From Lachnospiraceae bacterium (lineage in GTDB: Bacteria > Bacillota > Clostridia > Lachnospirales > Lachnospiraceae): a stretch of DNA of 34,445 nucleotides. Positions within the stretch are counted from its first letter, which is position 1. Every line of letters starts with the position of its first letter. A model generated the notes under the pieces. It did not search any database, was not told the origin of the DNA, and saw nothing but the letters and a program-made list of their open reading frames with translations. Location of the stretch: the NCBI GenBank assembly GCA_029062885.1, contig JAIDPH010000282.1:1-34445 (forward strand), in the 5' to 3' direction. Made by a program: the position numbers and the translations under genes. Below are positions 21,981-29,969 of this stretch, piece by piece.

Positions 21981-22006
21981 AAAGACCTACTACATGGAGC
22001 GTGTGT

Positions 22007-25000
22007 ATGAAGATTACATTTGACAATAGTAATACCAATCAAAATGTAGACAAGGTGATGACAACTACATATCGAGATACTCATACGGAGAAAACGAAAC
22101 AAACGAGTGCATTTGCATTAGACATTTCTGGAACAGTTATGGATAACACAGCTTACAAAGGTCAGGGAAAGACCGCGGAAGACGTTATGCAGTATGCGGG
22201 ACAAATTGATGTTGCCACGCAGAGAGACTATATGACAGTTATGTCTAATTCTATGTCTACAGAAGATTTTAGCCGTATGATGAAAGAAGGTTATCATATC
22301 GGCGATATGGATGTTGAAGAAGTCGTTACCATTGTTGATAAGATTAAGTCGGAGCTTATTAAAGGCGGAACGCAGGTTGCGGGATATACTGACCAAATAG
22401 ATGCAGAAACTCTTGAGAAAATTACAGGCAGTGAAGCATTTGCAAGAGAACTTTGTAATCAGTTTGCAAAACATGATGTACCAATTACGAAAGAAAATGT
22501 AATAGACGCCAAAAAGGCATATGATAGGGCGACAGAGCTTCAGGAAATGACGGAAGGCGCCATAAAATATATGGTTGAGAACCAAATGGCACCTACGATA
22601 GATAACCTGTATCTGGCAAATCATAGTTCTACAGCGGATGGTGACAGGCAGGGTAGAGGTTACTATTCAGACGGTTCGGGATATTATGCTAAGAAGGCAG
22701 AGGAATTTAACTGGCAGCAGTTGCGTCCTCAGATGGAAAAAGTTCTTACAGAGGCTGATTTAGAGGTTAACGAGGAAACGCTGGAAGATGCAAAATGGCT
22801 TATTGAAAAAGGAATTCCTTTAACACCGGAAGCTGTTGACAGACTTTATCAGTTGGATAATTTAACACTGCCACGAGACGATGAACAGATTCTTTCTACA
22901 ATTGCAGCTGCTATATCAGATGGCAAAAGCGCAGGAGCGGCAGATCTTGTAGATGGTAAAAGCAGTTTTGAAAAGGCTGCGGAGTATGTAGAAAGATTTG
23001 AATATATTACGGATGAGGCAGTTGATAAAACTGTAGCAGACGGAAAAGAACTTACTTTATCTAATCTGGAAGAAGCACAGAAACAGTTAGTGGATGTTCG
23101 GACTTCTACAGAAAAGAATTCTGAAGATAATAGTATTACAACTACTAATGTTTTAGCAGAGCTGCCTGAGAATATTTCAGCAAGACGGCAATTAGAAGAA
23201 GTTCGTCTGATGATGACAGTAGAAGCTAATCGTAAATTACTGGAAAGTGGGTATTCGATTGATACTACCGAGCTGGAAAAGTTAGTAGATGATTTAAGAA
23301 GGATAGAAGATTGGCAGAAGCAGCGCTTATTCAATGAGGAAAATGTTGAAAGAGCATTGGAAAAAGCTTCTCTTTATACTGAAACTCGCAGCAAAGTATC
23401 AGAATTACCTTATATGCCTATAGATGTTGTCGGCAGGTTTAAAGTTTCAGATGAAGATTTTACTTTAAATCAGGTACATATAGATGGCAGCGCGTTAAGA
23501 AATCATTACGATGAAGCCAAAGAAAAATATGAAGCATGGATGACGACAATAAGAGAAGATTTGGGTGACAGTATTAATAAAGCCACTCAAAATGCTGATG
23601 ATATTCTGAAGGACATGGGATTGGAGACCAGCGAAGAAAATCGTCGTGCAGTACGCATTCTTGGATATAATAGTATGGAGTTGACTGAGGAAAATATACA
23701 GTCAGTTAGAGAATCTGATATGGAACTTCGCCGCGTAATTGATAAAATGACGCCAGCAGTTGTTTTACAGACGATTCGTGATGGTAAAAATCCTTTGGAG
23801 ATGACGGTACCGGAACTGAATGATTATTTGGATTCCATGCAATATGCAAGGAATCAGGAAAACGAAAAATACAGCAAATTTTTATATAAGCTGGATAAAA
23901 ATAAAGAAATCAATGAGCAGGAAAGAACAGCTTATATTGGTATTTACCGTATGTTTAGACAATTTGAAAAGAATGATGGCGCTGCGGTTGGAGCACTGTT
24001 GAATATGGGTGTGGAGCTTTCCTTTAAGAATATGCTAAGCGCAGTTCGCAGTAGTAAAAAAGTCGGCATGGATTTTCTGGTGGATAATGATTTTGATGGA
24101 ATTGACGCAATAGAGAAAAATATGTCGATTACTACACAGATAGAAAGTGGCTTCCGAAAGTATTATCGCGATATAGTCGCAGATATAGCGGATCGGATGG
24201 CGAAGCAGGAAGCTTCTTTGGAAAAAGAATATCATGAAGAACAACTGAAAGACTGCCGGCAGGCATGTGAAGCTGAAGATGCGATTATAGAAGAGCTGCT
24301 GCATAATAGACAGCCAATATCAACAAATAATTTGGAAGCAGCAAATATGTTATTGAATAATAGAGGTTTTCTTTTTAAAAAGCTTAACGAATTGACTGAT
24401 TCAGCTAATGAAAGCAAGGTAAAAGCAGCCGTTGCAAAGCTTACGGAGTCAATGATTGATAAGGATTCCTTGCAGGAAGCTTACGAAGAAATGCAACAGG
24501 TTTTTGAAGAGGCTTTGGAAGAAGCACAGTATGATGAAGGTATAAGTTATATTGACTTGAAGACAATCCAGAGCTGCCGTAAGCAGCTGACACTAGCGGT
24601 AAATCTGGCACAGGAAGAAAATTATCATATACCTGTTGAAATCAATGGAGAGACGACTTCTATTCATTTGAAAGTCCTTCATGATAAAGAAGATTCCGGT
24701 AAAGTAAAAGCAACTTTTTCTACAGAAAACTATGGAAAGGTTGCGGCGGAATTCAGCATCAGAAATAACAAAATATCGGGTTATATAGCATGTTCCACAT
24801 CAGAAGGATGCGAAAGCCTGCAAGGAAAAGAAGAAGACCTACGCGCGGAACTGAAGAAGAATTTTGCAGATATATTGCAAAATGATACGGAGTTTGGAAG
24901 CATTGGCGTGATTCATAGCAAAGAATTGGATTTGAATGGGTTTTCAGCCAAAGAAACACAGAACGGGCAGGAAGCAGACAATACTTCGTCAGTGCAGACA

Positions 25001-25051
25001 GCTTCATTATACCGGATAGCAAAAGCATTTATTTCAGTTATTTCAGATTAA
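22007..25051 (+). CDS. Giant flagellar-locus repeat protein with FliK-like C-terminus (DUF6240-like)
   Basis: A 1014-residue protein lodged between two flagellin genes. It resembles, from memory, the DUF6240 proteins of Lachnospiraceae flagellar loci. There is no signal peptide or membrane helix. The body is acidic and helical, with about seven imperfect repeats each opening with a pattern like hxT-x-x-N/T-h-x-x-A, starting near residues 158, 252, 348, 440, 558, 669 and 769. The last part (about 855-985) is beta-rich, with IPVEINGETTSIHLKVL and TENYGKVAAEFSI, resembling the C-terminal domain of the hook-length protein FliK. The ATG at 22007 is preferred to GTG at 22001 (GGAG 8 bp upstream). 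A role in hook/filament length or flagellar export is inferred from context. Confidence 0.75.
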   Translation: MKITFDNSNTNQNVDKVMTTTYRDTHTEKTKQTSAFALDISGTVMDNTAYKGQGKTAEDVMQYAGQIDVATQRDYMTVMSNSMSTEDFSRMMKEGYHIGDMDVEEVVTIVDKIKSELIKGGTQVAGYTDQIDAETLEKITGSEAFARELCNQFAKHDVPITKENVIDAKKAYDRATELQEMTEGAIKYMVENQMAPTIDNLYLANHSSTADGDRQGRGYYSDGSGYYAKKAEEFNWQQLRPQMEKVLTEADLEVNEETLEDAKWLIEKGIPLTPEAVDRLYQLDNLTLPRDDEQILSTIAAAISDGKSAGAADLVDGKSSFEKAAEYVERFEYITDEAVDKTVADGKELTLSNLEEAQKQLVDVRTSTEKNSEDNSITTTNVLAELPENISARRQLEEVRLMMTVEANRKLLESGYSIDTTELEKLVDDLRRIEDWQKQRLFNEENVERALEKASLYTETRSKVSELPYMPIDVVGRFKVSDEDFTLNQVHIDGSALRNHYDEAKEKYEAWMTTIREDLGDSINKATQNADDILKDMGLETSEENRRAVRILGYNSMELTEENIQSVRESDMELRRVIDKMTPAVVLQTIRDGKNPLEMTVPELNDYLDSMQYARNQENEKYSKFLYKLDKNKEINEQERTAYIGIYRMFRQFEKNDGAAVGALLNMGVELSFKNMLSAVRSSKKVGMDFLVDNDFDGIDAIEKNMSITTQIESGFRKYYRDIVADIADRMAKQEASLEKEYHEEQLKDCRQACEAEDAIIEELLHNRQPISTNNLEAANMLLNNRGFLFKKLNELTDSANESKVKAAVAKLTESMIDKDSLQEAYEEMQQVFEEALEEAQYDEGISYIDLKTIQSCRKQLTLAVNLAQEENYHIPVEINGETTSIHLKVLHDKEDSGKVKATFSTENYGKVAAEFSIRNNKISGYIACSTSEGCESLQGKEEDLRAELKKNFADILQNDTEFGSIGVIHSKELDLNGFSAKETQNGQEADNTSSVQTASLYRIAKAFISVISD

Positions 25052-28947: not shown

Positions 28948-29220
28948 ATGGAAAAAATAGGTAGCGTAGCGGCTATTTTAGTTGTATGTACTCTGGTACT
29001 TGTAATAGGTGCATTCGGAAGAAAAATTGAGTGGATTATTAATTTTGTTTTGCGTGCAACATTGGGAACGATAGGAATTTATTTTCTGAATAATTTCCTG
29101 ATAGCAAGTAATATTTCAGCTGCTGTAGGCATTAATCCCATGACTGTTTTGACATCCGGAATCCTTGGATTTCCAGGGCTTATAGTGCTTTATGGCATTA
29201 ATTTTTTCAAAACATTGTGA
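28948..29220 (+). CDS. bofA: BofA-family pro-sigma-K processing inhibitor
   Basis: Small membrane protein (90 residues) with helices at about 5-22, 30-52 and 70-88 and the family ending GILGFPGLIVLYGI. In Bacillus, BofA holds back the SpoIVFB protease that activates sigma-K in the mother cell; in Clostridia the family persists even where that checkpoint is weaker. AAGGAAGG precedes the ATG. Its presence fits a spore-forming lineage. It lies upstream of the Tad promoter and is probably a separate unit. No good vegetative promoter was found in front of it, which would suit a sporulation sigma factor. Confidence 0.9.
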   Translation: MEKIGSVAAILVVCTLVLVIGAFGRKIEWIINFVLRATLGTIGIYFLNNFLIASNISAAVGINPMTVLTSGILGFPGLIVLYGINFFKTL

Positions 29221-29256
29221 GGTTTTCACAAAAAAGATTTTTTTATCAAAAAACAC

Positions 29257-29285
29257 TGGACAAGATTAAATGATGCATATATAAT
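29257..29285 (+). promoter_or_regulatory. Sigma-A promoter TGGACA-17-TATAAT for the Tad operon
   Basis: TGGACA at 29257-29262, a 17-bp spacer and perfect TATAAT at 29280-29285. Predicted start near 29292, giving an unusually long leader of about 144 bases before the first gene. Confidence 0.7.
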
Positions 29286-29291
29286 TCGATT

Positions 29292-29430
29292 TACAACTCA
29301 GGAATTCTTACATTGCGTATATGGCATTTATGATAACAAGTGCCATATCACATCAGTTAAAACTGCTTCTGCAGTTATCAGGGAATATCTTCCAATGATT
29401 CCGTAGAGTCGATTTTTTACAAAGGGGGTG
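29292..29430 (+). ncRNA. Structured 5' leader of the Tad operon, candidate riboswitch/attenuator
   Basis: Pairings seen by eye: GGAAT (29301-29305) with ATTCC (29398-29402) and CATTG (29311-29315) with CAATG (29393-29397) form a bulged closing helix. Inside it are ATATGGCA/TGCCATAT (29319-29326 / 29341-29348) and AACTGC/GCAGTT (29361-29366 / 29371-29376). The first hairpin loop carries TGATAAC (29331-29337), complementary to GTTATCA (29374-29380), a possible pseudoknot. Competing with the closing helix, TGATTC/GAGTCG (29396-29401 / 29406-29411) forms a short terminator-like stem followed by T6 (29413-29418), just before the ribosome site (29422-29431). No known class was recognised; c-di-GMP-I and -II consensus bases are not evident. 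Confidence 0.5.
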
Positions 29431-29435
29431 GTCTG

Positions 29436-29969
29436 ATTGGACTGACTTGCTATCACATTCTGTTAATTCTATTGCTCATAGTAGCTGTCATTATGGATTA
29501 TAAGCATGACAGGATACCTAACGGCATAATTATGTTTGGTACTGCCATCGGTTTTCTTTCCCACTCCAGAGGAAATGGCTGGCAGTGTATATTAAGTGCC
29601 GGTGTTGCTATACTCATTTCCTTCTGTATTTTGTATCCTTTATTTCGTATTGGAGGTATAGGAGCCGGAGACGTGAAGCTGTTACTTATGACAGGCAGTT
29701 ACTTTTCGGTTGATATGCAGCTTCATATCATGATGTTTTCTTTTATTATCGGAGCGTTACTATCCATTGAAAAAATGATATCGGAAGATAATTTTAAAGA
29801 AAGAATGCAATATTTGTGTTCATATATGATGGACTTGCTGCGTACAGGGCAATGGAAATTATACGGAGAGAATCTGAGCACGAATTACCATAAGTACAAA
29901 AGCAATAAAATACATTTTGCGTTACCGATTTTTTTAAGTGTAATGCTTGGATTAGGAGGAATATTTTGA
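29436..29969 (+). CDS. Prepilin peptidase (TadV/CpaA-like, A24 family)
   Basis: Membrane aspartyl peptidase that removes the leader from Tad pilins. The catalytic Asp pair is present: Asp in IMDYKHDRIPN (Asp21 from this start) and Asp79 in GGIGAGDVKLL. Start choice: the first standard in-frame start codon is TTG at 29472, but that lacks a ribosome site and cuts the first membrane helix in half. A strong AAAGGGGGTG (29421-29430) lies 5 bp before an in-frame ATT at 29436, from which the helix is complete (LILLLLIVAVI). ATT is taken as the likely start, CTG at 29442 being the alternative. First gene of the Tad operon; its stop overlaps the next start by two bases. Confidence 0.82.
   Translation: MGLTCYHILLILLLIVAVIMDYKHDRIPNGIIMFGTAIGFLSHSRGNGWQCILSAGVAILISFCILYPLFRIGGIGAGDVKLLLMTGSYFSVDMQLHIMMFSFIIGALLSIEKMISEDNFKERMQYLCSYMMDLLRTGQWKLYGENLSTNYHKYKSNKIHFALPIFLSVMLGLGGIF

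Follow-up and report, generated by a model that had tools for sequence, protein, structure and literature searches.

What does the short region between bofA and the Tad pilus operon of this Lachnospiraceae bacterium encode, and at which step might it act on the operon that it precedes? The first-pass annotation proposed an attenuator or riboswitch with two exclusive folds, and mentioned control near the ribosome site as a second option. In the present study, we compared this region with those of related genomes, in an attempt to separate what is shared within the genus from what is peculiar to a single sequence.

A structured leader RNA ahead of the Tad operon

Throughout, the window denotes the whole stretch of DNA analysed (34,445 nucleotides), and the promoter, the leader, the ribosome site and cpaA lie on its forward strand. 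The leader is flanked by bofA (28948-29220, Pfam BofA) and by cpaA/tadV (29436-29969), the prepilin peptidase A24 gene (Pfam PF01478, in a scan from 29433) which heads a Tad operon that also includes tadA (T2SSE) and tadB (T2SSF); the gene between cpaA and tadA has no Pfam match and was named tadZ by position. The well-formed promoter announced by the first-pass annotation is present, namely a sigma-A-type element at 29257-29285 with a -35 of TGGACA (29257-29262), a 17-nt spacer and a -10 of TATAAT (29280-29285). A -35 (TGGACA or TAGACA, 16-17 nt spacing) is found in all 59 same-genus leaders, and the conservation of the -10 among them is circular, as they were chosen via a TATAAT. Transcription would start near 29292, with the 5' end of the Tad-operon mRNA close to the first helix of the fold. 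The promoter region itself (about 29232-29291) has a 78% match in a genome of another family (L013, G051 contig C140:475-536), which may reflect contamination or transfer. Further upstream, a 1016-aa DUF6240 protein is encoded at 22001-25051, between two flagellin genes.

The conserved structured RNA occupies 29293-29410 and consists of four helices common to the relatives, in which P1 encloses the hairpins P2, P3 and P4. The 5' strand of P1 (ACTC, A, GGAAT; 29296-29305) starts some 10 bases downstream of the -10, close to where the transcript should begin, and its 3' strand (ATTCC, GTA, GAGT) lies at 29398-29409, so that GGAAT (29301-29305) pairs with ATTCC (29398-29402) and ACTC (29296-29299) with GAGT (29406-29409). 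Inside lie the P2 hairpin core (29319-29348), variable in length across relatives and missing from some, the P3 hairpin AACTGC-TTCT-GCAGTT (29361-29376), a conserved AUC joining P3 to P4 (29377-29379), and the P4 hairpin GGAA-TATC-TTCC (29382-29393). The two hairpins first described within the long-range pairing hold up as P2 and P3, and P4 joins them inside P1. The long-range pairing itself, originally drawn as 29301-29315 with 29393-29402, is essentially correct: its outer part (GGAAT/ATTCC) belongs to the conserved P1, whereas the inner extension CATTG/CAATG (29311-29315 with 29393-29397) occurs in only 1 of the 59 leaders and, by eye, in the nearest relative, L139.

The minimum-energy fold of the isolated 29293-29410 segment (-32.0 kcal/mol) contains P1-P4, and the segment 29290-29435 is more stable than most of its shuffles (z = -2.27; 5 of 200 equally stable). 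Over the 59 leaders the mean fold z is -3.1, with 52 below -2 and one positive. When the Shine-Dalgarno (SD) site or the early coding sequence is added, alternative structures of the window become more stable than the one with P1, by 1.4 and 2.2 kcal/mol; the probability of P1 is then 0.04 in the window and 0.65 on average over the 59 leaders. P1 is also degraded, by eye, in part of the window's clade, and against shuffled strands it reached p<=0.05 in 19 of 58 single leaders (median p 0.08).

Covariation, which the first-pass annotation had suggested looking for in the paired segments, is seen in P2 and P3. All seven model pairs of P2 and all three of P3 show two-sided changes, and the cpaA tree has 24 and 8 compensatory double changes in these helices, against maxima of 9 and 2 in slid controls whose partners were moved by 1-4 columns. 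P1 and P4 have no double changes on the tree, and a plain count gives two P4 pairs with two-sided changes. The support for P1 in orthologous leaders is of another kind: across 61 sequences it is near-invariant and 95.3% of its cells are paired, but not one two-sided change was counted. A G-C pair at 29302-29401 of the window, where relatives have A-U, adjoins a one-base deletion and was therefore left out of the count. In the alignment of the 61 sequences fitted to the covariance model R1, 92.4% of cells are paired. Of five measures computed on it, four, among them the covariation score, are higher than in any of 500 shuffles; the fifth, how many pairs show a two-sided change, is reached in 35 of the 500. 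All five lie above every slid version. The structure was derived manually from the aligned leaders, and alignment A3, being fitted to that structure, is biased towards it; RNAalifold on a plain MAFFT alignment recovers 9 pairs only. The segment 29293-29410 is a genuine structured RNA, conserved and located where the Tad-operon mRNA is expected to begin.

Distribution and novelty of the leader

The same-genus relatives were located via cpaA, which gave a strong match in 58 of the 60 genomes searched, the window's own included; these yielded 59 leaders, two of them from G077. Their shared plan runs from a block near ACAACUCAAGAAAUUCUAUG directly 3' of the -10 through P2 to P3 (GCC/GGC), AUC, P4 (GGGA/UCCC) and AUUUC(R)UUGAGUC; this last segment is complementary to the first block, and the two together form P1. 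Model R1, built on 46 of the 59 leaders, matches the window at 29288-29410 (42.3 bits) and 68 of 77 same-genus genomes at E<=1 (66 at E<=0.02), at a single place per genome except in G077, which has two. Among the best 80 of 366 named cpaA loci, 61 match at E<=1 and 57 at E<=0.003, and in all 61 the match lies immediately 5' of cpaA. Most of the nearest named records carry the label Lachnospiraceae, as the first-pass annotation had guessed; among the matches listed, L139 is the closest relative (CpaA 89% identical) and stands outside the 59 leaders. The nine genomes that R1 does not match comprise four with a cpaA behind a divergent leader (G016, G034, G063, G067), two lacking a cpaA match (G008, G082) and three outside the cpaA search (G100, G104, G113).

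With strict filters, R1 was positive in 2 of 150 genomes of the family sample and 2 of 392 of the order sample, all from the window's genus, and matched none of the 148 family-sample genomes from other genera. With filters off, it gave no meaningful match to L198 or L214, single leaders from two other genera, and in 11 other-genera leaders the P1 pairing was no better than in shuffles (lowest p 0.09). A P4-like hairpin, often GGRACA...CGUYCC, was seen in 12 of 43 cpaA leaders of other genera (L129, L179, L191, L198, L202, L206, L213, L214, L215, L216, L250 and L258), against a mean of 1.2 and a maximum of 4 in 200 shuffles. Because several of the 12 are closely related and the pattern was picked after inspection, membership of the element in a wider family beyond the genus is only a lead.

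The first-pass annotation did not recognise the class, and neither does Rfam 15: in the leaders of the window and of six relatives' loci no family reached its cut-off, the best being FinP, whose 17.1 bits fall short of its cut-off of 45. Like the Tad leader, the c-di-GMP-I and c-di-GMP-II riboswitches (RF01051, RF01786) are structured leaders, some of them before pilus genes, as in C. difficile; unlike them, the Tad leader matches neither covariance model, with no window match at gathering score or at E<=10 in 29200-29500, and none at E<=5 in the six relatives' loci. Across 41 same-genus genomes, c-di-GMP-I matched one (L260, G029 contig C45:505-586) and c-di-GMP-II none, counts that do not establish absence of these riboswitches from the genus because both models were silent in 14 control genomes.

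Orphan structured leaders described from comparative genomics likewise have a conserved 5' fold with covariation, and the Tad leader differs from those described in matching no Rfam 15 family. Term searches of the main texts of three discovery papers (PMC8040213, PMC11109978 and PMC8632094) gave nothing on pili, Tad or Lachnospiraceae, and only an unrelated passage on Clostridiales; titles and abstract openings on Tad pilus and riboswitch describe no such leader, and a search on prepilin peptidase, noncoding RNA and RNA motif found nothing. The candidate family looks new, and its kind, the structured cis-regulatory leader, is known.

The start region of cpaA

An SD site, AAAGGGGGTGG (29421-29431), precedes cpaA in the window, and an SD-like site lies upstream in all 64 same-genus named loci compared. 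Where both could be located, 10-29 nt (median 17) separate P1 from the SD. The cpaA frame of the window holds no ATG, GTG or TTG close to the SD, and its apparent first codon is ATT (29436-29438). Across the 64 loci, codon 1 is ATT in 51, GTT in 5, ATA in 4, ATC in 3 and AAT in 1, at a spacing of 7 nt from the SD in 46. ATT accounts for 356 of 933 other Ile codons of these genes (38%), versus 51 of 64 at codon 1. The conservation of third positions is 0.89-0.92 in codons 1-3, 0.55-0.84 in codons 4-8 and 0.34-0.92 in ten later codons, and synonymous changes in codons 2-3 (GGG, TTA) suggest that translation begins at codon 1 or 2. An in-frame stop at most 36 nt upstream, with no canonical start in between, occurs in 40 of the 64 loci. 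Some canonical in-frame start lies upstream in 22, within 12 nt in five (L142, L144, L150, L159, L183): a TTG at -3 in L142 and L150, and a GTG at -6 or -9, inside the SD, in L142, L144, L159 and L183. In L142 and L150, cpaA may start at the TTG directly 5' of codon 1. Taken together, the comparison indicates that cpaA apparently starts at AUU in most same-genus loci. One locus, L139 (around 3000), has AAT in place of the ATT as well as an out-of-frame ATG, and fits AUU initiation badly. In other genera, by eye, the start of cpaA is TTG, GTG or ATG in several cases.

E. coli infC has an ATT start and is controlled by IF3, and the GTC start of Streptomyces sigR, behind a very extensive ribosome-binding site (AGGAGGTG), is repressed by IF3, according to PMC5472188. 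With these genes cpaA shares a non-canonical start behind a good SD, the combination looked for in IF3-controlled genes and here recognised from sequence; it differs from them in the addition of a conserved structured leader and in heading a pilus operon, and any IF3 effect on it would be by analogy. In the window's own genome, the infC locus (L259, near 1501 of G000 contig C194) reads GGAGG...ATT AGC GAA and likely also starts at AUU, as does E. coli infC. Since infC of the same genome looks like an AUU gene too, IF3-sensitive initiation of cpaA is suggested.

Several other features of the start region were considered. An out-of-frame TTG-GAC-TGA (29437-29445) overlaps the ATT start; at this offset the 64 loci have TTG in 56 and ATG in 1, and the third codon is the first stop in 57. 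Frameshifting or re-initiation from this mini-ORF was set aside, AUU initiation being simpler. Sequestration of the SD by early coding sequence was rejected as well, the predicted pairing of the SD with downstream sequence (0.83) being barely above that with shuffled coding sequence (0.77). Across the leaders, no conserved pairing of the element with the SD emerged; alternative pairings of the start region with either the 3' strand of P1 or the flank of P4 were considered by eye and dropped, and a leader peptide was discarded too, the short AUG-UGA of some leaders not being conserved by eye.

How the leader may act on cpaA

We favour, with moderate confidence, an orphan leader that regulates cpaA in cis, at translation initiation. 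Initiation, or the lifetime of the mRNA available for it, is the most likely level of action rather than transcription termination, because the fold ends 10-29 nt before the SD and no conserved terminator is found; of the two options originally raised, control near the ribosome site is accordingly judged the better. Transcription would begin near 29292, and roughly 118 nt at the start of the Tad-operon mRNA would fold into a compact four-helix RNA, P1 forming once its 3' strand emerges and closing P2, P3 and P4. The folded leader would leave a short linker, the SD and the AUU, and would act in cis on cpaA, the first gene of the operon. Initiation of cpaA may be weak by design, with an AUU behind a good SD; by analogy with infC and sigR it would be slow and IF3-sensitive, so that the state of the leader could set cpaA output. 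Points against this reading are the lack of two-sided changes in P1, its modest pairing in single leaders and its degradation in part of the window's clade, the nine genomes of 77 without R1, the failure to find a conserved pairing that links the fold to the SD, the AAT of L139 and the 22 loci with upstream canonical starts.

Three further proposals are compatible with a translational leader and name what sets it. The first, a new riboswitch class in which a small molecule or second messenger bound at the P1-P4 junction would switch the translation of cpaA, seems to us a tentative possibility. It would account for a compact multi-helix fold with conserved unpaired UUCU and AUC beside a variable P2, that is, for a conserved, folded, aptamer-like domain in a leader; against it, the element precedes a single gene in, under R1, a single genus, and neither a conserved terminator nor an SD-sequestering switch was recognised as its expression platform, other kinds of platform being possible. 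The leader should not be called a riboswitch yet. We consider somewhat doubtful the second, a binding site for a protein such as an autoregulating Tad protein or a general RNA-binding regulator: the single target operon wherever the element was placed and P1 strands near-invariant beyond the needs of pairing are in its favour, but a candidate protein was not identified. Rather unlikely is the third, a signal-free 5' stabiliser or ribosome-standby structure in which P1 would cap the 5' end and leave the linker free for the 30S; the position of P1 just past the -10 and the length of the linker suit it well, yet P1 and the junction are more conserved in sequence than a plain stem would need.

The transcription attenuator with exclusive ON and OFF folds and a pseudoknot, as first proposed, is now very improbable. 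Its terminator-like stem does exist in the window (6 pairs, -3.9 kcal/mol) and overlaps P1, and the T6 run once read as its tail (29413-29418) is kept, by eye, in L139; neither, however, is conserved in the genus. A consensus scan found no terminator in the window, and a run of at least five T within 45 nt 3' of P1 occurs in 10 of the 59 leaders, at scattered offsets and in four of them beyond the SD. The supposed pseudoknot, TGATAAC/GTTATCA, has both arms in a single one of the 59 leaders, that of the window, L139 retaining by eye the 3' arm alone. A conserved terminator hairpin with a T-run, exclusive of an antiterminator, was thus not found, and since terminator, T6 and pseudoknot are missing in nearly all relatives, the attenuator is not supported. 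Least probable of all, the conserved blocks would be a DNA operator overlapping the promoter, which suits the near-invariant block directly 3' of the -10 but not the compensatory changes of P2 and P3 or the fold z-scores.

Returning to the translational leader, a bolder version, which we put forward as an unlikely speculation, would combine a new ligand-sensing class with the AUU, such that Tad pilus output in gut Lachnospiraceae is set by both a signal and IF3 while the UUG-GAC-UGA mini-ORF serves as a decoy start. If borne out, the leader would represent a family of cis-regulatory RNA not described before, which controls the surface pili of gut anaerobes, and cpaA would be one of the rare genes outside housekeeping operons to keep a non-canonical start codon throughout a genus.
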